From the NCBI RefSeq assembly GCF_017813335.1, contig NZ_JAGIYY010000002.1:310001-374000 (forward strand): a DNA stretch of 64,000 nucleotides. Direction: 5' to 3'. The translations under genes and the position numbers were made by a program. Below the pieces are notes generated by a model. It was not told the DNA's origin, did no database searches, and was given only the letters and a program-made list of their open reading frames with translations. Below, piece by piece: positions 4,659-24,168 of this stretch. This stretch comes from Tianweitania sediminis (lineage in GTDB: Bacteria > Pseudomonadota > Alphaproteobacteria > Rhizobiales > Rhizobiaceae). The first letter of the stretch is position 1; every line of letters starts with the position of its first letter.

Positions 4659-4661
4659 TCG

Positions 4662-6064: not shown

Positions 6065-6093
6065 TGCAGTCCTTCCGGCCGCTTGCGCGGCAC

Positions 6094-6717
6094 TCACATG
6101 TCGAGGAACACGGTCTCGTTGTCGCCCTGGATGCGGATGTCGAACGTAAACACAGGAATGCCGTCGCGCTCGCTGCGCCGAGCAATCAGCGTTTCGCGGC
6201 GCGCCGGTTCCGGGATGCGCAGGAGCAGCGGATCCCCAGCATTGGCCTCGGCTTCGTCCGCGAAATAAAGCCTCGTATGAAGGCCGATGTTTATGCCGCG
6301 CGCTACGATCCACACGGTGATGTGCGGCGCCTGCACGCGACCATCGGGGTAGGGCACCTGTCCGGGCCGAATGGTCTCGAAGCGGAACGTGCCATCGGCT
6401 TCCGCAACGGGCTGGCGGCCCCAGCCGACGAAGTTCGGATCAGCCGTCCCGCGCGTTTCGGCTGGCGAGTTGTGGAGGCCATCCGCATCGGCCTGCCAGA
6501 TCTCGATCAGGGCGTCGCGCACCGGTGCACCGGCACCGTCCGTGACCGTGCCCTCGATCAGGATGCGCTCCCCCCTGGTTTCGGGCCCAACGAGAGCGAG
6601 GCCGAGATCGTCCTTCCAGACGCCGGTGATTTCCACCCAGTTCGGGTTGGTACCGATATGAACGTAGGGGCCGGCTGTCTGCGACGGGCTCTCTTTGAGG
6701 TAGTCGAGGCGCTGCAT
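6094..6717 (-). CDS. pcaG: Protocatechuate 3,4-dioxygenase, alpha subunit
   Basis: PcaG is the structural alpha subunit of the intradiol dioxygenase that opens protocatechuate to 3-carboxy-cis,cis-muconate. The 207-residue protein has the intradiol fold signatures GPYVHIG, the DALIEIWQADADG strand and HITVWIVARGIN. It lacks the full set of iron-binding Tyr/His residues found in PcaH, as expected for the alpha subunit. It starts two bases after the pcaH stop. Confidence 0.95.
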   Translation of the reverse strand: MQRLDYLKESPSQTAGPYVHIGTNPNWVEITGVWKDDLGLALVGPETRGERILIEGTVTDGAGAPVRDALIEIWQADADGLHNSPAETRGTADPNFVGWGRQPVAEADGTFRFETIRPGQVPYPDGRVQAPHITVWIVARGINIGLHTRLYFADEAEANAGDPLLLRIPEPARRETLIARRSERDGIPVFTFDIRIQGDNETVFLDM

Positions 6718-6719
6718 GG

Positions 6720-7442
6720 TCAGTTCCCCTCCAGCCGGTTTTCAAACAGGGTCGAGCGGCGACCGCGCAGGACGATGTCGAACTTGTAAGCGAGGCTGTC
6801 CATCGGAATGGTGGCGTTGCGGTCGAGCGCTGCCACCAGCCTGTCGAGGGCCGCCGGATCGGGGATCGTCTTCACGATGGGGCACTGCCAGATCATCGGA
6901 TCGCCCTCGAAATACATCTGTGTGATCAGGCGTTGCGCAAAGGCGTGGCCAAACACGGAAAAGTGGATGTGCGCCGGGCGCCAGTCGTTGACGCCGTTCG
7001 GCCAGGGATAAGCGCCGGGCTTCACCGTGCGGAACTCATAGCGACCTTCCGCATCGGTGATGGCGCGCCCGCAACCGCCGAAATTCGGATCGAGCGCGGC
7101 GAGGTAGCTTTCCTTCTTGTGGCGATAACGCCCGCCCGCATTCGCCTGCCAGAACTCCACCAGCGCGCCCGGCACCGGCCGGTTCGTTTCGTCCAGCACG
7201 CGGCCATAAACAATGATGCGTTGCCCGATTGCTTCCGCGCCGTCCTTGGCGAAGTTGCGGATCAGGTCGTTGTCGAGCGGACCCAGGATGTCGTGGCCGA
7301 ACACGGGGCCGGTTTCTTCCGACAAGGTAGTAGGCAGCGAAAGAAGCGCGTGGCGTGGCGAGCGCAGCACCGACGTCTTGTAGGTTGGCGTGAGCGCCGG
7401 CGGGTGCCAGTCGCGATCGCGCTGGAAATAGGAATTGTTCAT
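6720..7442 (-). CDS. pcaH: Protocatechuate 3,4-dioxygenase, beta subunit (iron-binding)
   Basis: PcaH holds the non-haem Fe(III) of protocatechuate 3,4-dioxygenase. The 240-residue protein starts [19 protein letters not shown], has the [13 protein letters not shown]-like segment (here [13 protein letters not shown]), then [16 protein letters not shown] with a ligand tyrosine, and [17 protein letters not shown], which carries the H-x-H ligands. A longer frame runs up to 7697 but overlaps the previous gene; the ATG at 7442 overlaps the pcaL stop (ATGA) and matches the family start. Confidence 0.96.
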
Positions 7443-8625
7443 CCCGCCTGCTCCTCTCGCATGTCTGCGAATGTCTTTTTTGCGATCTTGATCGCGTGGT
7501 TGGCGGCCGGCACGCCGGCATAAACCGCGACATGCATCAGCGCTTCGGCAATGTCTCGTTCGCTGGCGCCGGTGTTGCGTGTGGCGCGCACATGCATGGC
7601 GACTTCGTCGTCCTGGCCCAGCGCGGCAAGCAACGCGATCGTCACAACCGAGCGCTCCCGCAAGGTAAATTGCCCGCTCGACCACACAGTGCCCCATGCG
7701 CCTTCCGTGATGAAGCGCTGGAACGCGGCGTCGAACGGTGTTGCGGCCGCACTCGCCCGGTCCACATGCGCGTCGCCGAGTACGCGACGGCGGACGCTCA
7801 TGCCGGTCTCGAACCGCGTGGACGCTTCCGCCACGTTGGCAGCCGCAGCGTCGAGGTGCTCGGCAAGGAGCCTTGCAACCTGATCCGGCTGTTCCAGGCA
7901 GGGCAGGTGACCGGCGCCAGAAATCAGGACAAACCGCGCATCTGGGATGCGCTCGGCCGTCCCGCGCACGAGATCCGGCGGTGTAGGCTTGTCATCGTCG
8001 CCGCACAACACGAGCGTCGGCGCGGTGATCGCCGCCACCTGCTCCGTGAGATCGGCGTCGCGCAAGGCAGCGCAGCAGCCGCGGTAGCCTTCGGATGAGG
8101 TGCCTTCCAGCATTGATCGCCAGCCGGCGTAGGCAGCCGGTTGAGCGCCGCGAAAAGCGCTCGTCGGCCAGCGGCTCACCACCGCTTCGCTGATCGCCTG
8201 CATCCCGCCGGTTTCCACAGCCGCGATGCGCCCGTTCCAGCTGTCGGCGTCGCCGATCTTGGCGGCTGTGTCCATGAGAACCAGCGCTTCAACGCGATCT
8301 GGCGCTTGGACGGCGATCTGCTGCGCGATCAGGCCACCAATGCTGAGGCCGACCACGCTTGCCTTTTTCCAGCCGAGCGCATCCAGAACGCTCAGCACGT
8401 CACCGGCCAGTTGCCTGATCGTGTAGGGACCAGCCGCCGCCTCGCTCAGCCCATGGCCCCGCTTGTCGAGAAGCAGAATCTCGAAGCGGTCGCGCAGTCT
8501 GGCTTCGACGTCTTCCCAGATTCGGAAATCGGAGCCGAGCGAGTTCAGGAAAACAACGCGCGGTCGTCCGGCGGTTCCGCCGAGGCGGTAGTGGTGGGTG
8601 ACACCATTGGCGGATACGAAAGGCA

Positions 8626-8626
<1 letters not shown>
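7439..8626 (-). CDS. pcaL: Fused 3-oxoadipate enol-lactonase / 4-carboxymuconolactone decarboxylase (PcaD-PcaC)
   Basis: One 395-residue polypeptide carries two consecutive pathway activities. Residues 1-260 form an alpha/beta hydrolase of the PcaD type with the nucleophile elbow GLSIGG (Ser95) and a late [11 protein letters not shown] histidine. Residues 275-395 form a carboxymuconolactone decarboxylase domain ([32 protein letters not shown]). 4-Carboxymuconolactone is decarboxylated and the enol-lactone then hydrolysed to 3-oxoadipate. The ATG at 8626 overlaps the pobA stop and the TGA overlaps pcaH, which decides the boundaries. The fusion order is hydrolase first, as in described PcaL proteins. 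Confidence 0.94.
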
Positions 8627-10546
<1,920 letters not shown>

Positions 10547-10547
<1 letters not shown>

Positions 10548-11293
10548 CAGGCATCCTCTCCCAGATAAGCGCTTCTGACGCGTGGATCGCTTCCGAGCTG
10601 TTCCGGCGTGCCGCGGAAGATAACGGCGCCCGAACTCAGCACGATCACCTCGCGGGCAAAACGGCGAACCAGATCCATGTCATGGTCGATAAGCAGCACG
10701 GCAAGTTCGGCGGGCAGGTTGTCGAGGGCGGCGACCACCCGGTCCATGTCGCTGCTCGGAATGCCGGCGGCCGGCTCGTCGAGCAGCAGCACCTTTGGCT
10801 TCAGCACGAGTGCAATGGCGATCTCGAGCAGGCGCTGCTGGCCATAGGCGATCTGTGCCACCACACGGTTCGCCAGGGGGTCGAGGCGCAGTCTGGCCAG
10901 CGCTTCCATCGCCTCGTCCAGAACCTCGGGCATCCGATGGTAGGACTTGAACATGCCGGCGGAGCGGCCTTCGCGCTGCAGGATCGCCATGGCGAGGTGG
11001 TCGATCACCGTGAGGTCGGGGAAAAGCCGCGTGATCTGAAAGGAACGGATCAGGCCAAGGCGAACGCGATCCGTGTCCTTCATACCGGTCACGTCCTGCC
11101 CCATCAGCGAAATGGAGCCGGATGTCGGGCGGTAAGCGCCTGCGATCAGGTTGATCAGGGTGGTCTTGCCGGCGCCGTTCGGTCCGATTAGGGCGGTGCG
11201 GCTGCCTTTGGCGAGGTTCAGCGAAACGTCATCGGTGACCTTCAGGCCACCGAAATTCATCTTGAGATTGCGGATGTCGAGGAGGGTGTCCAA
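10547..11293 (-). CDS. Branched-chain-type (HAAT) ABC transporter ATPase, LivG-like
   Basis: This 248-residue ATPase has Walker A (GPNGAGKTTLINLIAG), a Walker B strand (VLLLDEPAAGI) and the C-terminal region VLIDHDMDLVRRFAREV. The signature loop reads IAYGQQRLLEIAIAL, as in LivG proteins. The start is a TTG: an excellent ribosome binding site (AAGGAGGTG) ends six bases before it, inside the 3' end of the livM-like gene, and this decides the start. It is the larger ATPase of the importer. Confidence 0.93.
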
Positions 11294-11296
11294 GGC

Positions 11297-12283
11297 TCAC
11301 ACCTCCTTGTGCTGGAAGAGGCGGCCTACGAGGCCGTAGATGCCCTTTGGCGCGAACAGCACCACGAGGATCAGCAGGATGCCGACCAGGATCAGCCAAT
11401 GGAATGGGCTGGCCGCCGACACGGAATGCTCGAACCACATGAACACGAAGGTTCCAGCCAGGGCACCGAAGATGTGGCCGGTGCCGCCGAAAATCAGCAT
11501 CACCAGCGCTTCAGCGGATGTCGTGAAGCTGACGCTGTCCAGCCCCACCACCTGGGTCGCCACCGCCTGCAGCGCGCCGCCCAATCCGCCGACAAAACCG
11601 GAAATCGCATACATCTTCAGGAGCGTGAGATAAACGGACGCGCCCATGGCACGGACGCGAACGCGATCCTGATGGATGCCCCGGCACATCATGCCGAAGG
11701 GGGAGCGCACCAGGATGCGCAAAAGCACCGCCACGACCAGAACAACAGCAAGCGCCAGCCAGAACGCCGTCCGCCCCCACAGGTCGAACTCGAAGATGCC
11801 GAACAGCGGGTCGATGGTCAGGCCCGCCAAACCGTCGCTGCCGCCGGTCACGAACGACGCCTTGTTCACGCCCTCGGACGCGAGTTGCACCAGCGCGATG
11901 GAGATCACGAGCTGCGACAGGCCATGGCCCTTGAGGATCAGCGCGCCCGACACGACCCCCGCCAGCAAGCCCGCCAAGGAACCGAGCAGGAGGAGAAGCA
12001 GCGGATCCGACACGCCGTTGACGCTGGCGATGCCGGCCGCATAAGCGCCCGCGCCGTACACAAAGGCATGGCCGAGCGTCGCCACGCCGCTGACGCCTGT
12101 CACGAGGTCCAGCGACATCACGAGGAGGCTGATCGACAGGATGATCGTGAGGAACGACAGGTTGTTCGGGAAAAGGAAGAAGCAGCCGACGCCTACCGCA
12201 AGAATGGCGCACGCGCCGATCAGGTCTCGCAGCCCGTGCCGCGTGGTGGCTGGGATGGCCCGGGTCTGGGACAAAGCGGTCAT
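11297..12283 (-). CDS. Branched-chain-type ABC transporter permease, LivM-like
   Basis: This 328-residue inner-membrane permease has about nine or ten hydrophobic segments and the conserved patterns GVATLGHAFVYGAGAYAAG and GRSPFGMM-like RSPFGMMCRGIHQDRVRVRAMG that mark LivM proteins. The ATG at 12283 overlaps the stop of the livH-like gene (ATGA) and was chosen over an in-frame extension to 12418, which runs into that gene. It pairs with LivH as the membrane channel of the aromatic-operon importer. Confidence 0.92.
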   Translation of the reverse strand: MTALSQTRAIPATTRHGLRDLIGACAILAVGVGCFFLFPNNLSFLTIILSISLLVMSLDLVTGVSGVATLGHAFVYGAGAYAAGIASVNGVSDPLLLLLLGSLAGLLAGVVSGALILKGHGLSQLVISIALVQLASEGVNKASFVTGGSDGLAGLTIDPLFGIFEFDLWGRTAFWLALAVVLVVAVLLRILVRSPFGMMCRGIHQDRVRVRAMGASVYLTLLKMYAISGFVGGLGGALQAVATQVVGLDSVSFTTSAEALVMLIFGGTGHIFGALAGTFVFMWFEHSVSAASPFHWLILVGILLILVVLFAPKGIYGLVGRLFQHKEV

Positions 12284-13149
12284 ACGTTGAGTTTCCGTCC
12301 AAACAGGCCGTTGGGGAACATCAGCACGATGATGATCACGGCGAAGTAGAAGAAAAACGCGCCATAGGACGGCAGGAGATAACGGGCGACGGTGTCCACG
12401 GTGCCGAGGATCAGGCAAGCGGCAAGCGCTCCGCCAATTGACCCGGCGCCGCCCACGCAGACCACGACAAGAAGCATCACCATGTAGGTCAGCGCATAAT
12501 AGGGCTCGATCGGGAGCAGTTCCGCGCCGATCACACCGCCAAAGGCAGCAAGCCCCGTCGCGAGCGCGAAGCTCACCGAAAAAATCACACTGGTCTTGAT
12601 GCCGAGCGAGCCTGCAATCTTTTCGTTCTCGACTGCGGCGCGCAGCTTGATCCCGAAGTCGGTCTTCTCGATCACGTACCAGAGCCCGGCTGCAACCGCA
12701 GCGCCGCAGAAGGCGATGAAAACACGGTTGGACGACATGGTCCGGAAGCCGAGATCGACGCGCTGCCTCAGTTCGTCGGGCAGGGGGATCGTTTTCAAGG
12801 TGGGGCCGAAGATGAAGTTCGCGACGCCGATGATCACGAAGGTGATGCCGATCGTCATCAGGACCTGCGTGAGTTCGGAGGTGCCGTAGATGCGGCGGTA
12901 CAAGAGCCGCTCCATGGGCACCGCGATGATGATCGCGCCCACGACGGCGGCAGCAACCGCAAGCGTGTAGGACATGCCCTGGTCCTGCGTGATGTAGGAC
13001 GCGATGTAGCCGCCGATCATGGCAAAGGCGCCATGCGCGAGGTTGACGACCTTCATCAGCCCCATCGCGAGCGACAGGCCGACGGAGATGATGAAAAGCA
13101 CCATCCCGTACACAAAGGCGTCCGACAGTATGTTGAAGAAAAGCACCAT
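12280..13149 (-). CDS. Branched-chain-type ABC transporter permease, LivH-like
   Basis: This 289-residue membrane protein has around eight hydrophobic helices and the LivH landmark MGLMKVVNLAHGAFAMIGGY near residue 30, plus CVGGAGSIGGALAACLILG near residue 240. It is the first permease gene of the importer and is preceded by the amidohydrolase gene with a 54-base gap. The conserved N-L-A-H-G loop and length make the family assignment firm; the substrate is inferred only from the operon. Confidence 0.93.
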   Translation of the reverse strand: MVLFFNILSDAFVYGMVLFIISVGLSLAMGLMKVVNLAHGAFAMIGGYIASYITQDQGMSYTLAVAAAVVGAIIIAVPMERLLYRRIYGTSELTQVLMTIGITFVIIGVANFIFGPTLKTIPLPDELRQRVDLGFRTMSSNRVFIAFCGAAVAAGLWYVIEKTDFGIKLRAAVENEKIAGSLGIKTSVIFSVSFALATGLAAFGGVIGAELLPIEPYYALTYMVMLLVVVCVGGAGSIGGALAACLILGTVDTVARYLLPSYGAFFFYFAVIIIVLMFPNGLFGRKLNV

Positions 13150-13203
13150 CAGATTATCGCTTCACCGGCTCCCGGAGCCATGGCCTGGAGGTTGACCGCA
13201 GCA

Positions 13204-14796
13204 TCATGCATCGTGATGGACGATCCGGCCATCGATCATTGTGAGGGTTGCGCGGGTCGCGGCGAGCGCCGCACCCTCCGCTTCAAAGGGGTCTCGGTCA
13301 AAGGCGGCGAGATCGGCCGCCTGTCCGACTTCGAGCCTGCCGCGGAAGGGGCTGTGGTGCATGGCCTCCGCACCGCCGGCAATATACGCGTGCACCGCTT
13401 CGCGGACGGAAACCGCTTCCGCCGGACCCAGGATGCTTCCGTTGGAAGACTTTCGTTCGGCAGCCGAGCGCACGCCCTCCCACGGTGAAAACAAGCCGGT
13501 CGGTGCATCCGAGCTGAAAACGAGCTGCGCTCCTGCATCGAGAACGCTGCGGCCGGGATAGGCGGTTTCGGTGCGTCGTCCGAGCCCTGCTTCGATCGAT
13601 GGACCCATGCGCCACAGGAAGCTCGGCTGCATCACAACAAAGGCGTCGATGGCCTTGAGCCGCGGAAACAGATCCGGGGGAGGGCAGAAGCAGTGCTCGA
13701 TTCGGTGACCGCGCCGTTCCCTTTGCTTCCCTTCCGCCGCCTCATAGGCGCTGGCCACCAGCGCGATCGCCCGGTCACCGGTCGCATGAACGGCAACCCG
13801 CCATCCCGCCTCGTGCGCGGCAAGGATTTCCGCGACCAGCACATTCTCCGGCAAAACAAAGGTGCCTGTGCCGCCGCGGTCGCAGAACGGTTCGGAAAGG
13901 GCGCTGGTGCGGCCGCCGACAATGCCGTCGGCAAAAAACTTCAAGGTTTCGCGGCTCCACCGGCGGTCGAAGGCAGGCGTACGTTTGCGCTCCGCTGCTT
14001 CTCCGGCCGTGAGCTGCGCCATGAAACCCATGCGAACGGGCAGATCGTCGTCGCCACGAAGGCTGTCCCAGATCGCGTCTTCGCGGTCATGCCCGGCTGA
14101 AAAGCCGACCGCTGCCTCTGTCAGTGCAGTGAGCCCGAGCTTCGTGCAATCGGTGATGGCATCACGGATGCCTTGCCGCAGGAGATGTTCGGCCGGAATG
14201 GGGCCCGCGCGGAAGATCGCCTCGGCCGCCCCTTCATACGCGATGCCCTTCAACCGTCCGTCCGCGAAACGCTCGAAGTGTCCGGAAACGGGGTCCGGCT
14301 GGTGTTCTGCGAGGCCAAGGCGCTGCATGGCGGCCGTGTTGAACACTGCCACATGTCCGCAATAGCGCCGCAGCAGCACCGGCTGGTCACCGAACATCGC
14401 GTCGAGTTCGTCGCGCGTGGGCAGGCGCCGCTCAGCCAGCATATCTTCGTTGAGCTCGAGCGCCTGCAGCCATTCGCCCGGCGCAAGCCGCGCCTGCTCC
14501 TGTTGCAGGAGGCTGAAAACATCAGCCAGGACGCGTGGGCGATGGGCGGCAAAGCCAAGCTGGAGTCGCGCCAGGGCAAGAGTGAAGATGTGGATATGAG
14601 CGTCGGTCAGGCCGGGCAGCACGCAGGCGCCGTCGAGATCGATCGTGCGATCGGCCGCTGGAGCGTCCGCCCGGTTCCCGATCCAGGCGATCCGGTCTCC
14701 CCGCACAAGCAAAGCAGACGCCGGATCGATGTCAAAGGCGGTACGATGAAACCGCCCGTTAGACAGCAGAATGCTGCCTGTCGTCTCTTGCGCCAT
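13204..14796 (-). CDS. Amidohydrolase-superfamily metal-dependent hydrolase (YtcJ-like)
   Basis: This 530-residue protein has the YtcJ/amidohydrolase-3 architecture: an N-terminal composite beta domain (ALLVRGDRIAWIGNRADAP), the metal-binding LTDAHIHIF with an H-x-H pair near residue 65, the AVHATGDRAIALV histidine strand, the HRIEHCF histidine and the late SSDAPTGLFSPWEG with the catalytic Asp. No signal peptide is seen, so it is probably cytoplasmic. It sits between the binding-protein and livH-like genes. That suggests it hydrolyses an imported amide, imide or ester before the aromatic part enters the pob/pca route, but the substrate is unknown. The ATG at 14796 gives the family length. 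Confidence 0.85.
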   Translation of the reverse strand: MAQETTGSILLSNGRFHRTAFDIDPASALLVRGDRIAWIGNRADAPAADRTIDLDGACVLPGLTDAHIHIFTLALARLQLGFAAHRPRVLADVFSLLQQEQARLAPGEWLQALELNEDMLAERRLPTRDELDAMFGDQPVLLRRYCGHVAVFNTAAMQRLGLAEHQPDPVSGHFERFADGRLKGIAYEGAAEAIFRAGPIPAEHLLRQGIRDAITDCTKLGLTALTEAAVGFSAGHDREDAIWDSLRGDDDLPVRMGFMAQLTAGEAAERKRTPAFDRRWSRETLKFFADGIVGGRTSALSEPFCDRGGTGTFVLPENVLVAEILAAHEAGWRVAVHATGDRAIALVASAYEAAEGKQRERRGHRIEHCFCPPPDLFPRLKAIDAFVVMQPSFLWRMGPSIEAGLGRRTETAYPGRSVLDAGAQLVFSSDAPTGLFSPWEGVRSAAERKSSNGSILGPAEAVSVREAVHAYIAGGAEAMHHSPFRGRLEVGQAADLAAFDRDPFEAEGAALAATRATLTMIDGRIVHHDA

Positions 14797-14879
14797 AAAC
14801 AAACTGCAGGTGCTGGATAAAACAGAACAAGCGGAAGCAGCCCCGGCCCGTTTCGGCCGGAGCTGCCAAAAGCGGCTTC

Positions 14880-16055
14880 TTACTTGCCTTCGAGGCCCCA
14901 ATCGGGCTGGGCTTCGAACGTCCGGATTTCCTTGTTCATGTAAGTGTCGCCTTCCTTAGCGACTTCGCGCAGGTAAACGTTCTGCGTGATGTGGCGCGTG
15001 TCCGGATCGATGGTAACCGGGCCGCGCGGGCTTTCCCAGCTCATGCCCTTCACGGCATCCACCGCCTTCTGCGGATCCTGCTCGCCGTCCGTGGCGTCGA
15101 TCATCTCATAGATGAGCTTCGCACCGTCGAAAGCGGCAACCGCAGCCATGGTCACTTTGCTCGGGTCCGCACCAACCGCCTTCAGCGCTTCCATGAAGGC
15201 CTTGTTTTCAGGCGAGTCATGGGAAGCCGAGTAATGGTAGGTCGACTGGGTGCCGATCGCGACGTCGCCGAGCGCCGGCAGATCCGGTTCTGTGAGGAGG
15301 TCGCCTGTGGAGATCAGTTTGATGCCGTCTTCCTTGAGGCCGTTGCCGATATAAGACTTCATGAAGCCGAGCGTCGGCGCACCGGCTGGGAAGAATGCGA
15401 AAACCGTGTCTGCGCCGGACTGCTTGATGCGCTGGACCAGCGGGTTGAAGTCGGTTGTCGACAGGGGAACGCGCAGCGTTTCCACGAGCTCGCCGCCGCC
15501 TTCCTCGTAGGTCTTCTTGAAGCCCGCTTCGGCGTCGACACCGGGACCATAATCGCTGACGATGGTAATGGCTTTCTTGCTGCCGTTCTCGATCGCGACC
15601 TTGGCGGCAGGAACCGTATTCTGCCACATCGTGAAGGAGGTGCGCAGGATATACGGGCTCTGCTCGACAATGGACGAAGTGGCTGCATTCAACACAACGA
15701 ACGGTACCTTGCCCTGCTGCAGAAGCGGCGCGATGGCCAGCGCGTTCGGCGTGAAATAAGCGCCAGCAAGATATTGCACGCCATCGCGCACTACCAGTTC
15801 CTGTGCCAGCGCGCGTGCCTTGGCGGGATCAACCCCCGGGAGATCACGGAACACGAACTCGACATCATGGCCGTCGGCAGTCTTGCCGTTGACCTGCGCG
15901 TAGGCCTGTACGCCCCACTGGAAGTTCTGGCCGTAAAGCGAATAAGGGCCCGACATCGGTCCGATAACGCCGACCTTGATGGTGTCGGCATGGGCGGCCA
16001 CCGAGCCAAGCAGCAGCGCTGAAAGCGCGCCAAGCAGACGGATACGCGAAGACAT
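14880..16055 (-). CDS. ABC transporter periplasmic substrate-binding protein (LivK/type 1 fold)
   Basis: This 391-residue protein starts with a signal peptide (MSSRIRLLGALSALLLGSVAAHA, cleavage after AHA) and continues with IKVGVIGPMSGPYSLYGQ, the classic first strand of LivK-like receptors; a type 1 periplasmic binding fold follows (PNALAIAPLLQQGKVPFV, LISTGDLL, TMAAVAAFDGAKLIYEM). It is the promoter-proximal gene of the 13.6-kb operon, so it should be the most strongly made. The operon context points to an aromatic ligand, as known for related receptors in Rhodopseudomonas. The ATG at 16055 follows a GGAG ribosome binding site. Confidence 0.92.
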   Translation of the reverse strand: MSSRIRLLGALSALLLGSVAAHADTIKVGVIGPMSGPYSLYGQNFQWGVQAYAQVNGKTADGHDVEFVFRDLPGVDPAKARALAQELVVRDGVQYLAGAYFTPNALAIAPLLQQGKVPFVVLNAATSSIVEQSPYILRTSFTMWQNTVPAAKVAIENGSKKAITIVSDYGPGVDAEAGFKKTYEEGGGELVETLRVPLSTTDFNPLVQRIKQSGADTVFAFFPAGAPTLGFMKSYIGNGLKEDGIKLISTGDLLTEPDLPALGDVAIGTQSTYHYSASHDSPENKAFMEALKAVGADPSKVTMAAVAAFDGAKLIYEMIDATDGEQDPQKAVDAVKGMSWESPRGPVTIDPDTRHITQNVYLREVAKEGDTYMNKEIRTFEAQPDWGLEGK

Positions 16056-16201
16056 GTCAGTTCTCCTCTGTGGATCGCGCCTGATCAACCCTCTGAGCGC
16101 GTCAAATATTTTTCTTGTTGGCGATAAACGCACAAAGCCACACTATTCGCAGGAAAATGCCTTGGCAAGCAGCTTTCTCCGGCAGTCCGCAGAAGCCCAG
16201 G
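16056..16201 (-). promoter_or_regulatory. Control region of the transport/pob/pca operon
   Basis: This is the only gap upstream of the binding-protein gene, so it must hold the operon promoter. On the minus strand a TTGCCA element (around 16165) is followed after 17 bases by TAGTGT, a plausible -35/-10 pair. The region contains GCGATAA at 16121-16127 and CTATTCGCA at 16143-16151. The first also occurs inside the inverted repeat upstream of the ligase gene and the second upstream of the reductase gene, so they may be regulator contacts. AT-rich bases near 16105-16115 lie close to the start. Confidence 0.5.
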
Positions 16202-17215: not shown

Positions 17216-18679
17216 ATGACCGACCGCTTCGACAGCAAGATCCGAAACGGCTTCCTCGCCAGATCTGAGCTTCTGGATGAGGAGGCGATCCGCAAGGCGG
17301 TCGCCCTTCTGAGCGGGCTCGAAAAGCAGGGGATCGAAACCGTCCGCGTTCTGTTTCCGGATCAGCATGGCGTTCTTCGCGGCAAGACGATCGTGGCTTC
17401 AGCACTCGCATCGACCTTTGCCAGCGGCATGGCAGCACCTTCCACCCTGCTTTTGAAGGACACGTCCAATCGCACCGTATTCAGCGTTTGGAGCGGACAA
17501 GATAGCGGCTCCTGGGTGCCGATGGGCGGCGCGGGAGACATCCTCCTGTGCCCGGACCCCGACACGTTCCGCGTGCTGCCCTGGTCGCCGCATTCGGCAT
17601 GGATCCTGTGCGACACCTACACCAAGGACGGCGCGCCGATCGGCTTTGCGCCGCGCAACATCCTGCGCAAGGCGGTGGCGCAGCTGGCAAACCACGACTT
17701 GGCCCTGGTTGTTGGCCTCGAGGTGGAATTCCATGTTTATGAGACCACCGATGCGCGCATGGAGCACGCATCGGCGACAATGCCGAACCAGCCACCCGTG
17801 ACGCGTCCTGTTTCGCTGGGCTACCAGTTTCTTGCCGAGGTTCGCTATGACCGGCTGGAATGGATCATGGATGAGTTGCGCCGCCACGCCGAACAGCTCA
17901 ACCTGCCTGTGCGCTCCACCGAGGTCGAGATGGGCCCGAGTCAGTTCGAGTTCACCTTCGATCCGGCCGATCCGCTCACCCACGCCGACAACATGATGAT
18001 GTTTCGCACGATGGTGAAGGAGGTTTGCGCCAGGCGAGGGCTCCACGCCACCTTCATGTGCCGACCGAAGGTCGAGAACGGGGCGGCCAGCGGATGGCAC
18101 CTGCATCAATCGCTCGTCCGTCCTGCGACGGGACAAAACCTGTTTGTTCCCGAGCAAGCGGACCAGCCGACCGAACTCGCTGGCCAGTGGATAGCCGGGC
18201 TTCTCGCGCATGCCCGTGAAAGCTGCCTTCTCACCACGCCGACCGTGAATGGTTACAAGCGCTACCAGCCTTTCCAACTGGCGCCCGATCGTATTCAGTG
18301 GGGCCAGGACAACCGCGGCGCCATGATCCGCGCCTTGATGAAGCCGGGCGACCAGGCCAGCCGCATCGAGAACCGCGTCGCCGAAACGGCCGCCAATCCC
18401 TACTACTTCTTTGCCACGCAGATCCTGTCCGGACTGGACGGCATCTGCTCGCAGATGACGCCGCCACGGGCGGTGGAAACACCTTACAACAGCGACGCAG
18501 CGGCGTTGCCGAAAAGCATGATCGCCGCGGTGGAAGCGTTTGAATCCTCGCCATTCTATCGAAGGGAACTCGGCGACGAGTTCGTCAACTACATCACCCA
18601 CATCAAGCGCTCCGAATGGGACCGCTACCTCATGACCGTCACCGAATGGGAGCAGGCAGAATACTTCTCGCTATTCTGA
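17216..18679 (+). CDS. Glutamine-synthetase-family gamma-glutamyl ligase, probably acting on an amine
   Basis: This 487-residue protein keeps the glutamine synthetase fold: a beta-grasp domain (VLFPDQHGVLRGK), then GLEVEFHVYE, EVEMGPSQFEFTFD, GAASGWHLHQSL, NGYKRYQPFQL and RIENRVAETAANPYYFFA, which carry the metal, glutamate and ATP contacts. Family members outside central nitrogen metabolism, such as PuuA, IpuC and the aniline enzymes TdnQ/AtdA1, join glutamate to amines through the gamma carboxyl. An arylamine acetyltransferase follows 12 bases downstream and a Rieske oxygenase lies nearby, so gamma-glutamylation of an aromatic amine is likely. A true ammonium-assimilating enzyme is less likely given the context and the divergent motifs. 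No strong ribosome binding site is seen. Confidence 0.85.
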   Translation: MTDRFDSKIRNGFLARSELLDEEAIRKAVALLSGLEKQGIETVRVLFPDQHGVLRGKTIVASALASTFASGMAAPSTLLLKDTSNRTVFSVWSGQDSGSWVPMGGAGDILLCPDPDTFRVLPWSPHSAWILCDTYTKDGAPIGFAPRNILRKAVAQLANHDLALVVGLEVEFHVYETTDARMEHASATMPNQPPVTRPVSLGYQFLAEVRYDRLEWIMDELRRHAEQLNLPVRSTEVEMGPSQFEFTFDPADPLTHADNMMMFRTMVKEVCARRGLHATFMCRPKVENGAASGWHLHQSLVRPATGQNLFVPEQADQPTELAGQWIAGLLAHARESCLLTTPTVNGYKRYQPFQLAPDRIQWGQDNRGAMIRALMKPGDQASRIENRVAETAANPYYFFATQILSGLDGICSQMTPPRAVETPYNSDAAALPKSMIAAVEAFESSPFYRRELGDEFVNYITHIKRSEWDRYLMTVTEWEQAEYFSLF

Positions 18680-18691
18680 GGACGCACCGTG

Positions 18692-19501
18692 ATGACCGCT
18701 TTTGATGCAATGCGCTACCTCCGGCGACTCGGCCTCGAACAGGCGCCTGTTGGTGTGGAAGGACTACGCACCCTGCAAGCCGCGCATATGGCAGCCGTGC
18801 CCTTCGAAAACTTGGACCCGCTGCTTGGCCGCGTGCCGCTGCTTGATCCCGCCGCACTCGGAAACAAGATCGTCCGGCAAAGGCGCGGCGGATATTGTTT
18901 TGAGCTCAACGCCTTGTTCGGTTTGGCGCTGGAAGCTTTCAGCTACCGGCCCACAACGGTGCTCGGACGCGTGCGCAACGGCGCGTCGCAGGGCGGGGCA
19001 CGCATGCATCAGTGCTTCGTTGTGCAGGTGGAGGGCCGCGAATGGCTCGCGGATGTCGGGTTCGGTGGTCCGGGTGCCGTATGGCCCGTGGCGCTGGATC
19101 AGGACACGCCGCAGGTCCTGCCAAACGGGACCTATCGCGTGCGGTTTGACGCAAGCTGCGACGAAACTGTGCTGGAACGTGCGCAGGGCGAGGGGTGGCT
19201 CGCGCTTTACGGCTTTGATCGCAGCCCTGTGCGCCCCGTCGATCTGGAGGCTGCCAACCACCTCGCGGCCACCTGGAAAGGGGCGCCGTTTTCCACGCAT
19301 CTGATGATGGCGCGCCATGGCGAGGAAGGCCGCAGTACGCTGTTCAACCGGAAGTTCACCGACGGCAGCAAAGCGCAGCATGTGCTTGTAAGTGCTGAAG
19401 AATTGCACGACGTGCTCGTGCGCGGGTTTGGCCTCGATCTGCCCGAACAAACGGCGACGGCTGTTTGGGACCGGATCAAGGACGCTCCGCTCGAACGCTA
19501 G
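18692..19501 (+). CDS. Arylamine N-acetyltransferase
   Basis: This 269-residue enzyme transfers acetyl from acetyl-CoA to arylamines or arylhydrazines. The catalytic triad is visible: Cys69 in RGGYCFELN, His106 in ARMHQCFVV and Asp121 in LADVGFGG, with spacing as in characterised NATs. The gene lies between the ligase and the tautomerase genes on one transcript. It may detoxify the amine substrate, protect an intermediate, or act on an aminophenol product. A GTG three bases earlier is an alternative start; the ATG was preferred. Confidence 0.95.
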   Translation: MTAFDAMRYLRRLGLEQAPVGVEGLRTLQAAHMAAVPFENLDPLLGRVPLLDPAALGNKIVRQRRGGYCFELNALFGLALEAFSYRPTTVLGRVRNGASQGGARMHQCFVVQVEGREWLADVGFGGPGAVWPVALDQDTPQVLPNGTYRVRFDASCDETVLERAQGEGWLALYGFDRSPVRPVDLEAANHLAATWKGAPFSTHLMMARHGEEGRSTLFNRKFTDGSKAQHVLVSAEELHDVLVRGFGLDLPEQTATAVWDRIKDAPLER

Positions 19502-19525: not shown

Positions 19526-19867
19526 ATGCCGCATGTCGTGATAGAACATTTCGAGGCGTTTGCGAGCGGCGCATCGCGCAACGACGCCATGCAGCTTGCT
19601 TTGACCGTTTGTGAGGCGTCCGCGATCATGGCGGTGGAGGACATCAAGGTCCGCTGCCTTCCCGCCGAAGCAATCCTGTTCGGCGACGGGCGACGGTCTT
19701 TTCTTCACGTCACCGTGTCCATGCTGACCGGCCGCAGCGACGAGCAGAAGGATGCGCTGGCTCAGGCACTGCGTGAGGCCTTTCGCACGCAGTGCCCGGA
19801 TGTCGAAAGCATCAGCATCGACATCCGTGACATGAATCCGGCCTGTTACCGCAAATCGCTCGCTTGA
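19526..19867 (+). CDS. 5-carboxymethyl-2-hydroxymuconate isomerase (CHMI/HpaF)-family tautomerase
   Basis: This 113-residue protein starts MPHVVIEHF, so the mature N-terminus is Pro1, the catalytic base of the tautomerase superfamily. FLHVTVSMLTGRSDEQKDAL and the closing SIDIRDMNPACYRKS match the longer CHMI subgroup rather than the 62-residue 4-oxalocrotonate tautomerases. It is the third gene of the ligase operon. HpaF isomerises a ring-cleavage product of homoprotocatechuate; no extradiol dioxygenase is present nearby, so its true substrate here is open. It ends 11 bases from the tail of the convergent unknown gene. Confidence 0.8.
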   Translation: MPHVVIEHFEAFASGASRNDAMQLALTVCEASAIMAVEDIKVRCLPAEAILFGDGRRSFLHVTVSMLTGRSDEQKDALAQALREAFRTQCPDVESISIDIRDMNPACYRKSLA

Positions 19868-19877
19868 AGCCGCGCTC

Positions 19878-20627
19878 TCACAGAAGCCGCGCGAGCTCGA
19901 GAGCTTCCTTTTCGGCCTGATCCGGGCTGGTGTCGACCAGAACATAGCTGTGCATGTCGGACGCTTCGCCTGCTTGGACGATGCCCTCCAGGCGACCTGC
20001 CGTGAATTCCTCGCCGGTCAGAACATGCGGCTCCTGGGCGTCGTGCGCGGGTTGGATGCCGGAGGTCAGGGGGTAACCACCCCAAGCGCGGCCGGAGGTC
20101 CAGCCGAGCTCGTGGACTGCGGAAGACAAAGCGGACGCCACCGCCGTCCCGCGCGGGACACGAACGCATGCGGTGGTGTTCGCCGGCTGGCCGCTTGCGG
20201 TTTCCGGATGGTCCCTATCAACCCCGATGCCGCGCACAAAGGCCGGCTCTCCCAAACGGATCGTCGGGGCAAAGCGGGGAGCCTCATCGCGCGGATCAAG
20301 CCAGAACCATCTTCCCACGCCATCAAGCTGCAGCCCCTCGCCGGTGGCGCGCGCGAACACGTCCATTCGCTCGATCATGCCGGCATAGGTTTTCCGAAGG
20401 GAAAAGGGCACGGGATCGGTTGGTGCCAATCCCTTGATGTTCATGACGGGCGCATGCAGCAGCGTGATCCACGCCGAAGCAAAGCCCTGCCGCGCCATCA
20501 GCTGACGGATCGACTCTTCCAAGGGGAAGTAGCCATCGAGGATATCCTCGAAGGCTCTTCCCCGAACGCGGCAAACGTCCACAGAACTGGTCAAGGGCCG
20601 GTTCAGACCGAGGCGTCCCAAGGACAT
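19878..20627 (-). CDS. Unknown protein overlapping the Rieske catalytic gene; faint resemblance to PPC/DUF296 domains
   Basis: I do not recognise this 249-residue protein with confidence. It has no signal peptide and no membrane helix. Two segments, about residues 35-65 (FPLEESIRQLMARQGFASAW) and 155-185 (VRVPRGTAVASALSSAVHEL), look alike in pattern and faintly resemble the start of PPC/DUF296 domains, so it may be a tandem repeat of one fold. Several histidines (HAPV, HDAQEPH, DMHSY) could bind a metal. Its start lies 25 bases inside the 3' end of the Rieske catalytic gene, on the same strand, so the two are likely co-translated and work together. A maturation, scaffold or hydrolase role is conceivable. 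Confidence 0.6.
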   Translation of the reverse strand: MSLGRLGLNRPLTSSVDVCRVRGRAFEDILDGYFPLEESIRQLMARQGFASAWITLLHAPVMNIKGLAPTDPVPFSLRKTYAGMIERMDVFARATGEGLQLDGVGRWFWLDPRDEAPRFAPTIRLGEPAFVRGIGVDRDHPETASGQPANTTACVRVPRGTAVASALSSAVHELGWTSGRAWGGYPLTSGIQPAHDAQEPHVLTGEEFTAGRLEGIVQAGEASDMHSYVLVDTSPDQAEKEALELARLL

Positions 20628-21832
20628 TCTGACCGGCGCTGCATGTCGGCCTGCCAGCTTGCGGCTTCCCAGTCCTTTGTTGTGGCAATGGCGTCGTTGG
20701 AAAGCGGCCCGACGATGCGCGAAACATCCACATCGCCGCGCATGGGAAGCGCAGCCTCCTTCTTGCTTTCAACGGCCTTGATCGCCTTGCGCAGCATCAG
20801 GCGGTAGCGGACGATCGCCGCGTCGCCGCGTCCAAGATGCTCGCGCGTGCGATCCTGGATAGGCCCCAGACCTTCCACCGCCCACTGGTCGTGAACGTTG
20901 ATGTCCAGCCCCATGCCCGTATAGGTGAGCGTATTCTGCTCGTCCGGGTTGTAGTGGTAGTTGTTGCGGCGGTTCTTGAGCGGAGCGTAATCGGGGAGCC
21001 GGTGCTCCTTCAGGCGCTGTTCGCGCATGACGTCCTTGTCCACCGGCTTCGAGAAGCTGGTGAACATCGTGTACCAGTAGCAATTCTGGTCATCCACCGG
21101 CACATGCCACTGCGTGATGATCATTTCGCGGGACATCGGGATGCAGATCGCCTGGGGGAAGATCTGATTGGTCACGCGAACATGCGTCAGGTCGTTAGCC
21201 ATGTGACGCAAGGCCGTGATCTTGAGGCCGAAGTCGGTTTCCTCGACTTCGATGTCCGGACGCGGATATTCCCGCAGAACCTGCGTCATCGGCATGTCGA
21301 GATTGGCTGCCTTGTCGCGGAACTGCTTGCCGTAGCTGTCCGCAGGGTCTTCGTCCTGCAGGAAGCGGTGGAGGAAGGACGCATGTGCTGGGTCGATGCC
21401 GACTTCCAGCGCCTGCAGCCAGTTGCATTCCCACAGGCCCTTGAAGGCGAAGACATGGCTGTCCGGCGCGCGGAAACAGTCGAAGTTCGGGAATTCAGGA
21501 GCCTCGCCCGGCCCCATATACGCGAAGAAGATGCCCTTCTTTTCCACAACGGGATAAACCGGGCCGCCATCGACAATCTCGATACTTTCCGGGTCCGGAA
21601 AATGCGCCGGGGCTTCATCAGGGGAAGCAACGCGCTGGGTCAGCACAAACCCCCCGGCATCGTTGCGCAACAACACCAGACGTTCGCCCATGAGGTTCAC
21701 CGCAAGCTTGCTTGCGCTGCCCTGCATCTCGTCCACGAGCGCTGCCGGCTGCCAGTACCGCCGCAACACCTCGCCCGCCGGTGTTTGCGGGCCGATCTGG
21801 GTGATCTGGTTGTTGAGCTTTTCACTAATCAT
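20603..21832 (-). CDS. Rieske-oxygenase catalytic subunit lacking its own Rieske cluster
   Basis: This 409-residue protein aligns with phthalate-dioxygenase-type alpha subunits: it starts with IGPQTPAGEVLRRYWQPAAL and GERLVLLRNDAGG, and later has the mononuclear-iron motif D147-x2-H150-x4-H155 (in EVGIDPAHASFLHR). A candidate acidic third ligand lies in the WAVEGLGPIQDRTREHL region. The C-x-H...C-x2-H Rieske motif expected at about residues 65-95 is absent; the chain passes directly to YPVVEKKGIFFAYMGPGE. No pair of Cys/His residues there could hold a 2Fe-2S cluster. It therefore needs an outside Rieske centre, most likely the product of the gene just upstream. The two genes are 27 bases apart on one transcript. 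Confidence 0.88.
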   Translation of the reverse strand: MISEKLNNQITQIGPQTPAGEVLRRYWQPAALVDEMQGSASKLAVNLMGERLVLLRNDAGGFVLTQRVASPDEAPAHFPDPESIEIVDGGPVYPVVEKKGIFFAYMGPGEAPEFPNFDCFRAPDSHVFAFKGLWECNWLQALEVGIDPAHASFLHRFLQDEDPADSYGKQFRDKAANLDMPMTQVLREYPRPDIEVEETDFGLKITALRHMANDLTHVRVTNQIFPQAICIPMSREMIITQWHVPVDDQNCYWYTMFTSFSKPVDKDVMREQRLKEHRLPDYAPLKNRRNNYHYNPDEQNTLTYTGMGLDINVHDQWAVEGLGPIQDRTREHLGRGDAAIVRYRLMLRKAIKAVESKKEAALPMRGDVDVSRIVGPLSNDAIATTKDWEAASWQADMQRRSECPWDASV

Positions 21833-21859
21833 GTCGAATCCTCCAAGGTGGCGGGACGT

Positions 21860-22312
21860 TCAGCGGGTAGCAGAAGCGGCGGGCTGCGCGGGAACCACGA
21901 CGTCGCGCGGCGGCTCGCCCTTGCCCATATAGGTCAGGATCGCGCCGTCCTTCTCCACAACAGGATAACTGGGCAGCTTGATCGTCTTGTACATGGTGGA
22001 ATCCGCGGGCTCGGCGGGTTGTTCCACGCACTGGCCGTTGCGATCGAAATGCCAGCCATGAAACGGACACCGCAGGCCGTTGTCTTCGCGTCGGCCAAAA
22101 CAAAGATCAGCGCCGCGGTGAGGACAATGGCGCCCGATCAGGCCAAGCTCCCCTTCGTCGTCGCGAAACAACACCAGCCGCTGGCCGAAAAGCGTCACGG
22201 GGATCACAGGGCGCGGGATCTCAAGGTCGGCACTGTTTGCCGCCCTGATCCACGTGTCGGGTGCGCCGGGTTCCAGCGCATCGCCTAGCTCTGCATCGTC
22301 CCGCGCGTTCAT
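21860..22312 (-). CDS. Stand-alone Rieske domain protein of oxygenase alpha-subunit type
   Basis: This 150-residue protein carries one Rieske [2Fe-2S] motif: C63-x-H65-x16-C82-x2-H85 (RHCPHRGADLC and LRCPFHGWHFD). It is followed by YPVVEKDGAILTYMGKGEPP, nearly the same segment as in the catalytic partner, and then stops. The motif style (CPHRGA, CPFHGW) is that of oxygenase alpha subunits, not of soluble Rieske ferredoxins of about 105 residues. It presumably supplies the cluster missing from the downstream protein. The ATG at 22312 follows GGAAGG at a good distance; an upstream in-frame TTG at 22333 is less likely. Confidence 0.88.
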   Translation of the reverse strand: MNARDDAELGDALEPGAPDTWIRAANSADLEIPRPVIPVTLFGQRLVLFRDDEGELGLIGRHCPHRGADLCFGRREDNGLRCPFHGWHFDRNGQCVEQPAEPADSTMYKTIKLPSYPVVEKDGAILTYMGKGEPPRDVVVPAQPAASATR

Positions 22313-22492: not shown

Positions 22493-23725
22493 ATGAAGGC
22501 AAAGGTCGCAATCGTCGGATCCGGTCCATCAGGATGCTACGCTGCGCAGGCTTTGCTGAAGGCAGCGCCGGACCTGCAGGTCGACATCATCGACGCTTTG
22601 CCGGTGCCTTTTGGGCTGGTCCGCTATGGCGTGGCGTCCGATCATCAGGGCACGAAGGCGGTGTCCCGCCAGTTCAGCCGCATCTTCGAGCGTCAGGGCG
22701 CCGGCTTCTTTGGAAATGTCCGGATCGGACAGGATATCTCCCTTGCGACGCTGAGAAGCGCTTATGATGCGGTGATTCTAGCCGCGGGTTTGTCGGCAGA
22801 TCGCAAGCTGGGGATTCCCGGTGACACTTTGCCGGGCGTTTACGGGTCCGCCGCGCTGACCCGGGCTCTCCACGAACATCCCGAAGCCGACGCGCTGCCC
22901 GATCTCGGTTCCGCGCCGGTGATCGTCGGCAACGGTAATGTGGCCATTGATCTCTTGAGGGTGCTCGCCAAGACGGCGGATGAACTTCATGGATCCGATC
23001 TCGGCCCCGGACCAACCGCGTGGCTTGCAGCAAACAGGTTTGAAACGCTGACCGTGATCGGGCGATCACCGGCCGGCAAGGCGAAGTTCGACCCTGTGAT
23101 GGTGCGGGAACTGGCCAAGCTCACAAATGTCACGATCGACGTGGCGGGCGTGCATTCATCGGAAGACGAGGAGGAGCGAAAGCGCCTCGAAGCGCTGTCC
23201 GAAATCCATGGCCACGCGAAGGGATCAACCCGCATCATCTTCCGCTTTGGGCTGCAACTTCGTTCCGTTGAAGGAACGGACCGTGTGTCCGGCCTGAAGG
23301 TTGCTAGCGCTGAAGGTGAGGAGATCATTCCGGCATCCAGCATCCTGACGGCGATCGGCTTCCAGTCCAGCGGCGATTTCGATCGCGAGGCCCTGCTTTC
23401 GGCGGCCGAACCGGATGCGAGCGGCAAGCTGGCCGAAAATCTGTTTGCGGCAGGCTGGTTTTGGCGTGGTCCGCGGGGAACGATCCCCGACAGCCGAACC
23501 GAAGCGCAGGCGCTGGCGACGCGTTTGCTCGAAGAAATCTCACCGAATCCCGATCGGGAAGGGTCCCATATCTTTGCAGGCCTGCGGGATGTTGTGGACT
23601 ACACCGGCTGGCAGAAGATCGACAGCGCGGAACTGGCAGCGGCGGCGCCAAACCGGTGTCGGCAGAAGCTTGCTGGCAAGAACGAGCTTTTGCGCGTGGC
23701 GGGCGAACAGGAGACCAATTCATGA
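22493..23725 (+). CDS. NADPH-ferredoxin/flavodoxin reductase, adrenodoxin-reductase (FprA) type
   Basis: This 410-residue FAD protein has an N-terminal VAIVGSGPSGCYAAQALL dinucleotide fold, the FGLVRYGVASDH segment typical of adrenodoxin-reductase-like enzymes, an NADPH-binding VIVGNGNVAIDLLRVLAK segment, and a C-terminal AGWFWRGPRGTIPDSR that closes the FAD site. It should take electrons from NADPH and pass them to a small carrier. The flavodoxin gene overlaps its stop (ATGA), which makes that protein its obvious partner. The ATG at 22493 follows GGAGG. It is transcribed away from the split Rieske oxygenase, which it probably serves. Confidence 0.92.
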   Translation: MKAKVAIVGSGPSGCYAAQALLKAAPDLQVDIIDALPVPFGLVRYGVASDHQGTKAVSRQFSRIFERQGAGFFGNVRIGQDISLATLRSAYDAVILAAGLSADRKLGIPGDTLPGVYGSAALTRALHEHPEADALPDLGSAPVIVGNGNVAIDLLRVLAKTADELHGSDLGPGPTAWLAANRFETLTVIGRSPAGKAKFDPVMVRELAKLTNVTIDVAGVHSSEDEEERKRLEALSEIHGHAKGSTRIIFRFGLQLRSVEGTDRVSGLKVASAEGEEIIPASSILTAIGFQSSGDFDREALLSAAEPDASGKLAENLFAAGWFWRGPRGTIPDSRTEAQALATRLLEEISPNPDREGSHIFAGLRDVVDYTGWQKIDSAELAAAAPNRCRQKLAGKNELLRVAGEQETNS

Positions 23726-24168
23726 AAATCGACGTCCTTTTCGGCACGGAAACCGGCAATGCCGAAATGCTGGCAGAAGACATCCAGTCCGCGCTGGAAA
23801 GCGAACACGATGTCACCTGCCGTGATCTGGCGGATGTCGACCCAGCCGAGCTTGATGGCGAAAGCTTTGCCGTGATCGTGTGCTCCACTTATGGCGAAGG
23901 GGAACTGCCCAGCTCCGCCCGCCCGTTTGCTGAAAAGCTCGACGCTGGCTCCTACGACCTGTCTGCCTTGCGCTTCGCGATGTTCGGCCTTGGTGACGCC
24001 GAATACAGCAAGACGTTCACGCATGGCTCGAAAACGCTGGCCGAAAAGCTCCAAGCGAAAGGCGCCGTGCAGGTCGGAGAGCGCGTCACGCATGATGCAT
24101 CGAGCGGCGATGCTCCGGAGGATGTGGCGCTTCCTTGGATCACCGACATCGTTGCGCAGGTGGCTTGA
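23722..24168 (+). CDS. Flavodoxin
   Basis: This 148-residue protein has the flavodoxin FMN phosphate loop FGTETGNAE near residue 7, followed by CSTYGEGELPSSA (second FMN loop) and FGLGDAEYSKTF (third loop). Length and motifs also allow a MioC-like short flavodoxin. It is co-translated with the FprA-like reductase through a four-base overlap. The pair would form an NADPH-to-FMN electron chain. With no ferredoxin gene in the module, this flavodoxin is the likely donor to the stand-alone Rieske protein, an unusual arrangement for Rieske oxygenases. Confidence 0.92.
   Translation: MKIDVLFGTETGNAEMLAEDIQSALESEHDVTCRDLADVDPAELDGESFAVIVCSTYGEGELPSSARPFAEKLDAGSYDLSALRFAMFGLGDAEYSKTFTHGSKTLAEKLQAKGAVQVGERVTHDASSGDAPEDVALPWITDIVAQVA

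Follow-up and report, generated by a model that had tools for sequence, protein, structure and literature searches.

How does a Rieske oxygenase receive its electrons when the chain that holds the catalytic iron lacks the cluster that should pass them on? The question is raised by two adjacent genes in a stretch of 64,000 nucleotides from Tianweitania sediminis (assembly GCF_017813335.1, contig NZ_JAGIYY010000002.1, positions 310,001 to 374,000; hereafter the window), of which one encodes a 409-residue oxygenase and the other a 150-residue Rieske protein (Table 1). Ordinary Rieske oxygenases of this kind carry both metal centres on one chain. Based on sequence comparisons we propose, with a probability of about 0.82, that the window encodes a Rieske oxygenase with its cluster domain split off as a protein of its own, and that the small protein and the oxygenase together would rebuild the electron path that runs between subunits.

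Cluster ligands and iron ligands on separate proteins

Our comparisons cover 31 distinct loci with such a divided oxygenase (split loci) and 101 distinct intact oxygenases, obtained from a genome scan, genome samples and two plasmids after merging near-identical copies. In the window oxygenase, Pfam finds the LigXa_C domain (PF19301, 1.3e-28) and no Rieske domain. The motif Asp147-x2-His150-x4-His155 is intact, and neither a C-x-H nor a C-x2-H motif was found in the sequence. Aligned with intact relatives, the protein is shorter by a net 29 residues at a single fixed site, and the residues of the first ligand pair are substituted. An earlier note on this DNA, made from the letters alone, had described the missing Rieske motif, and the loss recurs in all 31 split loci: the deletion measures 29 residues in 28 of them and 31 residues in three, the second Cys/His pair is deleted throughout, the His of the first pair is absent throughout, and a Cys stands at the first Cys column in one protein. 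None of the 31 proteins retains the same-chain Rieske cluster of LigXa_C-type oxygenases.

The cluster-binding loops are replaced by a linker (residues 68-91), which shows the lowest conservation of ten stretches compared, with a mean identity of 0.40 among split proteins. An AlphaFold2 (AF2) model of the oxygenase (mean predicted local distance difference test score, pLDDT, of 86) retains, within residues 27-67 and 92-105, strands that belonged to the former Rieske domain, and the cluster-binding part is absent from it. The best Foldseek matches of the model are isophthalate dioxygenase (9ioy, 9ina) and phthalate dioxygenase (7v25). The available text on the former gives D174 as the bridging residue and H177, H182 and D337 as iron ligands (PMC12445078); a hand count along the alignment yields Asp147, His150, His155 and Asp315 as the window equivalents. 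Alignment A2 (32 rows, including 22 split proteins; alignments A1 and A3 contain 20 and 22 sequences) shows no variation at any of the four, which bears out the claim that the bridging Asp is kept as Asp147. Judged by its sequence, the 409-residue protein is a LigXa_C-type catalytic domain with a predicted 2-His-1-Asp iron site and bridging Asp.

The complete Rieske motif that the earlier note had seen in the 150-residue neighbour is confirmed by Pfam (PF00355, 1.1e-20), and its four ligands are invariant in the small proteins of all 31 split loci. The YPVVEK and YMGxGE segments that flank the cluster loops, which had been read as shared, are genuinely common to the small protein and the oxygenase.

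Distribution of the gene pair

Since the genome scan retained the best 80 of 585 relatives, its counts are not frequencies. Twenty of these 80 loci hold a Rieske-less oxygenase (64-83% identity), in each case with the small Rieske protein immediately upstream. The other 60 hold intact oxygenases (59-65% identity); no separate short match to the small protein was found in them, the motif there being inside the oxygenase. A search for the same gene pair in other genomes had been suggested as a check, and over the full set of 31 distinct split loci the small gene lies just upstream of the Rieske-less oxygenase without exception. Two of these loci (L006 and L007) are from strains of one species and two are on closed plasmids. 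The gene table of the Pseudooceanicola algae plasmid lists a 'Rieske 2Fe-2S domain-containing protein', an oxygenase and a 'hypothetical protein' consecutively. The table of the Palleronia plasmid omits the small gene, yet the open reading frame (ORF) is present.

Among 397 sampled genomes of the window's order, 117 have a match to the small protein at 1e-15. A high-identity stand-alone small protein occurs in three of the 397, the window's genome included, and a Rieske-less oxygenase adjoins each. The family of the Thalassovita gelatinovora genome (G788) was sampled with 388 genomes, 46 of which have a match at 1e-35: nine are split, 36 are intact (24 confirmed by sequence, 12 by open-frame length) and one is broken. 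A class sample of 385 genomes gave 32 with a match at 1e-35 and, judged by open-frame length, no further split member beyond the window's own. The search with alignment A1 in the order of genome G758 (14 genomes) gave no match.

Two candidates were rejected as split: L123 from the class sample is of the intact type read in two frames, and G1040 from the family sample is a broken fragment from the N-terminal part of the intact type (L202), placed in neither count. L102 and L123 are both intact-oxygenase relatives with an interrupted frame and are excluded from the split count. L102 is also left out of the trees, as is L083 (the same as L001). Identity counts exclude oxygenase matches below 45% identity or too short (L176, L177, the second L040 oxygenase and L102), and the 28 class-sample loci L113-L140 enter only the third-protein scan described below, with no tree or identity count.

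Origin of the two proteins

The 31 split oxygenases form one clade with a bootstrap of 100 and a Shimodaira-Hasegawa-like approximate likelihood ratio (SH-aLRT) support of 99, in a tree built without the Rieske columns and with 43 intact comparators picked partly by hand and partly at random. In a wider oxygenase tree of 23 split and 86 intact proteins, with the second oxygenase of L040 as distant outgroup, the split clade (99) is nested within the intact oxygenases; the node uniting it with seven of them has an SH-aLRT of 96, the surrounding nodes 80-92. Likewise, the 23 small proteins tested group together (SH-aLRT 98) in a tree with Rieske domains of intact oxygenases, within which their clade is nested. 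The neighbours of the split clades in the oxygenase and Rieske trees overlap (L018, L022, L023 and L032). On the sequences, the split oxygenases have a single origin, and descent of both halves from intact oxygenases of the LigXa_C family is supported. These trees, and the comparison of the Rieske stump that follows, use alignments with columns removed or picked.

Conservation in the two proteins shows mirror-image patterns. Mean pairwise identity in the split oxygenases is 0.77 for the catalytic domain and 0.61 for the remaining Rieske stump, whereas in intact oxygenases the stump exceeds the catalytic domain by 0.01-0.07 in all 101 overlapping subsets of 31. The catalytic domain stands at 0.77 against 0.71 in intact enzymes, and residues 131-160, which include the bridging Asp and two iron ligands, at 0.94 against 0.91. 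For the small proteins the cluster loops reach 0.89 (0.84 in intact enzymes), and the flanking parts of the barrel 0.60 and 0.51 (0.77 and 0.68 in intact enzymes).

Simply cutting one gene in two would not account for the pair, since the regions that flank the cluster loops are retained in both proteins; duplication fits. The mirror-image conservation and the overlapping flanks indeed fit a duplication followed by complementary loss; this much of the history suggested in the earlier note stands. That both halves descend from the same copy of the ancestor is likely, not proven, because the sisters of the small-protein clade are supported by only 75-76 in the Rieske tree.

Proposed electron path

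According to the scheme that we favour, an intact alpha subunit of about 438 residues, of the isophthalate/phthalate-dioxygenase (LigXa_C) type, would have been duplicated once. One duplicate would have lost its cluster-binding loops and remained an oxygenase; the other would have been reduced to its Rieske domain. Electrons would pass from NAD(P)H to an FAD reductase and a flavodoxin, whose genes lie nearby in part of the clade, then to the small Rieske protein, and from there across a protein-protein interface via Asp147 to the mononuclear iron, where the substrate would be oxidised. That substrate would probably be a gamma-glutamylated amine made by a neighbouring ligase. The free cluster domain would dock beside Asp147, with a third protein securing or gating the docking. 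The earlier note had inferred a heteromeric ring of the two proteins; a stable 3+3 ring would be one possible arrangement, a transient contact like that of a ferredoxin another.

The distances in intact enzymes are of interest here: the cluster lies approximately 12 Å from the iron of the next subunit, against 45 Å within its own subunit, as given in the available text of a 2025 review (PMC12445004). Since transfer from cluster to iron already runs between subunits in intact enzymes, a separate cluster domain would suffice if rightly docked.

A third gene at the split loci

The earlier note had described a system of two proteins. Two proteins do hold the metal centres; the account is incomplete, however, as it missed a third gene, for a protein of 249 residues in the window, that is present in 31 of the 31 split loci. 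A profile of this protein has a match at each of the 20 split scan loci, and the full count adds the window, G237, G148, six more family-sample genomes and the plasmids L141 and L142. Its position varies: over the 20 scan loci it lies directly after the oxygenase gene in eight and after the ligase gene in 12. No match was found in 86 intact loci, 26 of them with a flank of about 1.5 kb and some scan contigs being short, nor in the class-sample loci L113-L140. Whole-genome searches gave a single copy in each of 13 split genomes. In the family sample, 11 of 394 genomes have a match, namely ten split genomes and, weakly, G1107 (2.5e-7); none of the 36 sampled intact genomes has one, with seven candidates scored per genome where counts were shown. 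The G1107 match was rejected as a lone third protein, being a longer PPC-like ORF in a genome without a small-protein match.

The 249-residue protein has no match in Pfam, GST families included, or in NCBIfam. Its AF2 model (pLDDT 77) is matched by Foldseek to 2hx0 (E 5.5e-4, probability 0.99), followed by 2nmu, 3hwu, 2h6l, 3htn and 2dt4, with template-modelling (TM) scores of at most 0.43. The title of 2dt4 is PPC, and the other five structures we take to be of the PPC family as well. PPC proteins are commonly trimers. No match to PCC (PF03479) appeared in Pfam among 20 third-protein members with E up to 1. Co-occurring as it does with the split, this protein is the leading candidate for a factor that would hold or gate the docking of the small protein on the oxygenase.

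A PPC-like protein of 351 residues at L157:1183-2235 is weakly similar to the third protein; its genome has no small Rieske match. By hhalign the two compare at 96%, and the L157 ORF itself has a weak match to PF03479 (E 0.048). Possibly it is a relative of the source from which the third protein came.

One split locus, L017, is assigned to Granulosicoccaceae in a metagenome bin. Taken together, this bin and the plasmid loci L141 and L142 suggest horizontal spread of the three-gene set.

Comparison with known systems

The published precedent, by analogy, is NdmC/NdmD/NdmE, the caffeine N7-demethylase of Pseudomonas putida CBB5, for which the available text reports that NdmC has no Rieske cluster, that the reductase NdmD carries an extra cluster and that the GST-like NdmE is required (PMC4408171). 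Both systems have a clusterless oxygenase, a cluster on a partner protein (here by sequence) and a third protein. They differ in that NdmCDE carries its Rieske domain on the reductase as a fusion, whereas it is a single-domain protein of 150 residues in the window, and in that the third protein is GST-like there and, by a weak fold match, PPC-like here, without a Pfam GST match. The window system thus differs from NdmCDE in two of three defining parts. The window oxygenase, of LigXa_C type, was set beside NdmC by description and not by the NdmC sequence. In the open-access text that our search covered, the one description of a Rieske split is that of NdmCDE (PMC4408171), and NdmC does not occur in the available text of the 2025 review (PMC12445004).

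Isophthalate dioxygenase from Comamonas testosteroni KF1 (9ina, 9ioy) has the closest solved fold to the large protein and shares its iron ligands and bridging Asp; unlike the window system it carries cluster and iron on one chain, in an alpha3 trimer (available text of PMC12445078). The intact 438-residue relatives (for instance L018, L022 and L025) share 59-65% identity, and 59 of their 60 scan loci also have a ligase gene nearby. These differ from the window in that their Rieske motif is intact and that they have no stand-alone Rieske gene (60 loci) and no third gene.

A second split family was found through eight distant stand-alone Rieske matches, seven of them short-frame matches from the order sample. 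At five loci (L204, L205, L207, L208 and L210) a stand-alone Rieske protein of 209-241 residues is accompanied by a Rieske-less oxygenase and a GST-like gene. At L206 the oxygenase frame is limited to the C-terminal two thirds; at L209 and L211 the Rieske and GST-like genes are present and the oxygenase of this family was not found in the 7 kb read. Pfam assigns the oxygenase to the VanA_C type (L204 and L207 scanned), and comparison with the window oxygenase gives no significant match (E 0.25). The nearest solved relatives of the L208 oxygenase are SxtDIOX, SxtT, NdmB and NdmA. The second family resembles the window in its stand-alone Rieske protein, Rieske-less oxygenase and third gene, and differs from it in the VanA_C type of the oxygenase and the GST-like nature of the third gene. 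By analogy it is probably NdmC/NdmE-like, with the Rieske domain unfused from the reductase. Because this family is unrelated to that of the window, at least two origins of the Rieske split seem likely, each accompanied by a third gene of its own.

Alternative explanations

Two more specific forms of the proposed scheme can be distinguished, and their odds are not exclusive. To the first we give an even chance: the PPC-like protein would be a structural subunit, the counterpart of NdmE, in a C3-symmetric assembly of small, large and third proteins. It is favoured by the association of the third gene with all split loci (31/31) and with none of the intact genomes (0/36), by the GST-like gene beside the unrelated split system, and by NdmE itself, which is required and is postulated, in the available text of PMC4408171, to align the Rieske cluster with NdmC. 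The position of the third gene past the ligase in 12 of the 20 scan loci, rather than beside the oxygenase, argues against such a subunit, as does the weak fold assignment; the third protein could also be an enzyme or a regulator of this pathway branch.

A second form, which we regard as less likely than not, takes the small protein as a diffusible carrier resembling a Rieske ferredoxin, which makes transient contact and is not a subunit. In its favour, the small protein consists of just one small domain, and in part of the clade a reductase and a flavodoxin that could reload it are encoded next to it. Its ancestry points the other way: in the PDB ranking an oxygenase alpha subunit comes first (7.1e-32) and the best ferredoxin follows at 1e-4, and in a tree without ferredoxins the small proteins group inside the oxygenase Rieske domains, where descent from a Rieske-type ferredoxin is not what is seen. 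In addition, the small gene and the oxygenase gene overlap by 4 nucleotides in 16 of the 31 pairs (gaps of 8-66 nucleotides separate them in the other 15), and such an overlap favours balanced production.

We consider it very unlikely that the oxygenase no longer needs a Rieske cluster, being reduced directly by flavodoxin or having a non-oxygenase role, and that the small protein serves elsewhere. This explanation could appeal to the reductase and flavodoxin genes that adjoin the pair in the window. Their homologues are less constant than the small gene, which is there in 31 of 31 loci: a reductase homologue lies near nine of the 31 split loci, the window counted and eight of the 31 having a flank of about 1.5 kb only, and a flavodoxin adjoins it in eight of those nine, the ninth (L084) being cut off. 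No homologue of either was found in the available stretch of the other 22 loci, seven of which have a flank of about 1.5 kb. A fixed reductase-flavodoxin partnership was rejected on these counts, and the electron donor is not fixed. Asp147, moreover, is invariant, and its role in relatives is transfer from cluster to iron. Nor was another oxygenase found for the small protein to serve. The window's genome has two PF00355 matches, one of them the small protein; the other adjoins a gene that by eye we take to encode cytochrome b. Searches with PF00355 and with the oxygenase revealed no other oxygenase-type Rieske protein in this genome, and only one match to the 409-residue oxygenase. Among 20 other split genomes, none has a next-best match to the small protein above 46% identity, so no intact orthologue substitutes there.

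A pseudogene or an assembly error, for which the missing motif is the single argument, has a negligible chance, since the same deletion and gene pair occur in 31 distinct loci from independent records, two closed plasmids included, which rules out sequencing or assembly error, and since the catalytic domain is as conserved as in intact enzymes.

A Rieske oxygenase with a separate cluster protein therefore remains the reading we prefer, and several points weigh against it. In the AF2 model the barrel stump left on the oxygenase might clash with a docked Rieske domain; as the oxygenase retains these old strands, the small protein may not simply occupy the place of the former domain. Many split loci have full flanks and yet lack reductase and flavodoxin homologues. 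To these come the weak support for the sisters of the small-protein clade, the intact-genome calls that depend partly on frame length (12 of 36), the whole-genome search for the third protein, with its seven scored candidates per genome, and the weak fold match of that protein.

Neighbouring genes and possible substrate

Features of the locus are collected in Table 1.

Table 1. Features in and around the divided oxygenase locus (positions within the window)
Feature	Position	Strand	Basis or remark
Rieske-less oxygenase, 409 aa, mononuclear-iron domain	20603..21832	-	PF19301; 29-aa net deletion; Foldseek
Approximate linker replacing the cluster-binding loops, residues 68-91 of the 409-aa protein	21560..21631	-	Alignment
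Stand-alone Rieske [2Fe-2S] protein, 150 aa, ligands Cys63, His65, Cys82, His85	21860..22312	-	PF00355; tree; invariant ligands
Third protein, 249 aa, putative distant PPC-like fold	19878..20627	-	Start overlaps end of oxygenase gene
FAD/NAD(P) reductase (Pyr_redox_2), likely electron donor	22493..23725	+	Divergent from small gene
Flavodoxin (MioC-like)	23722..24168	+	Start overlaps reductase stop by 4 nucleotides
Glutamine-synthetase-like ligase, probable gamma-glutamylation of amine substrate	17216..18679	+	PF00120, 2.8e-80
Arylamine N-acetyltransferase, pathway context	18689..19501	+	PF00797, 4.3e-56
CHMI-like tautomerase, pathway context	19526..19867	+	PF02962, 1.4e-6

A homologue of the ligase lies within the fetched flank of 20/20 split and 59/60 intact scan loci. 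The gene that marks the gamma-glutamyl arylamine dioxygenase pathway is thus found at every split scan locus. In the AtdA and NpaA systems (aniline and 1-naphthylamine dioxygenase) a glutamine-synthetase-like ligase likewise adjoins a Rieske oxygenase, and the gamma-glutamyl adduct is oxidised (PMC11335346, available text). Unlike the window they use a two-component oxygenase of the AtdA3A4 type, together with a dedicated reductase (AtdA5) and a GAT-like enzyme, and the available text of PMC11335346 mentions no division of cluster and iron. Judging from the ligase and this aniline/1-naphthylamine precedent, the substrate is probably a gamma-glutamylated amine. A literature search on homarine or another named pathway as the substrate gave nothing useful.

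Adjoining the oxygenase cluster, at 9831-16133 on the minus strand, are a set of genes for an ABC transporter of the branched-chain-amino-acid type and an amidohydrolase-like gene, recognised by appearance; the family search covered the binding protein of this set (14880-16133). They may possibly provide uptake and release steps. Further away, at 3456-9813 on the minus strand, lies what we take to be a beta-ketoadipate-like cluster, with a thiolase and genes resembling those for a CoA-transferase, an intradiol dioxygenase and 4-hydroxybenzoate hydroxylase.

Implications

The most far-reaching version of the proposal is a three-protein oxygenase with a free cluster subunit and an obligatory PPC-like scaffold or gate, which would be independent of both NdmCDE and the GST-associated split family; we rate its chances somewhat below even. 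If true, it would imply a rule, namely that dividing cluster and iron of a Rieske oxygenase over two proteins requires a recruited third protein that holds the electron-transfer interface. With the metal centres on separate proteins, each could be prepared, reduced and mixed alone. In such a divided system one could then measure directly how electron delivery is timed and gated, what the bridging Asp does and whether a covalent link is needed. The recurrence of a third gene, whose kind differs between the split families, would offer a testable rule on how the interface between cluster and iron is kept up.

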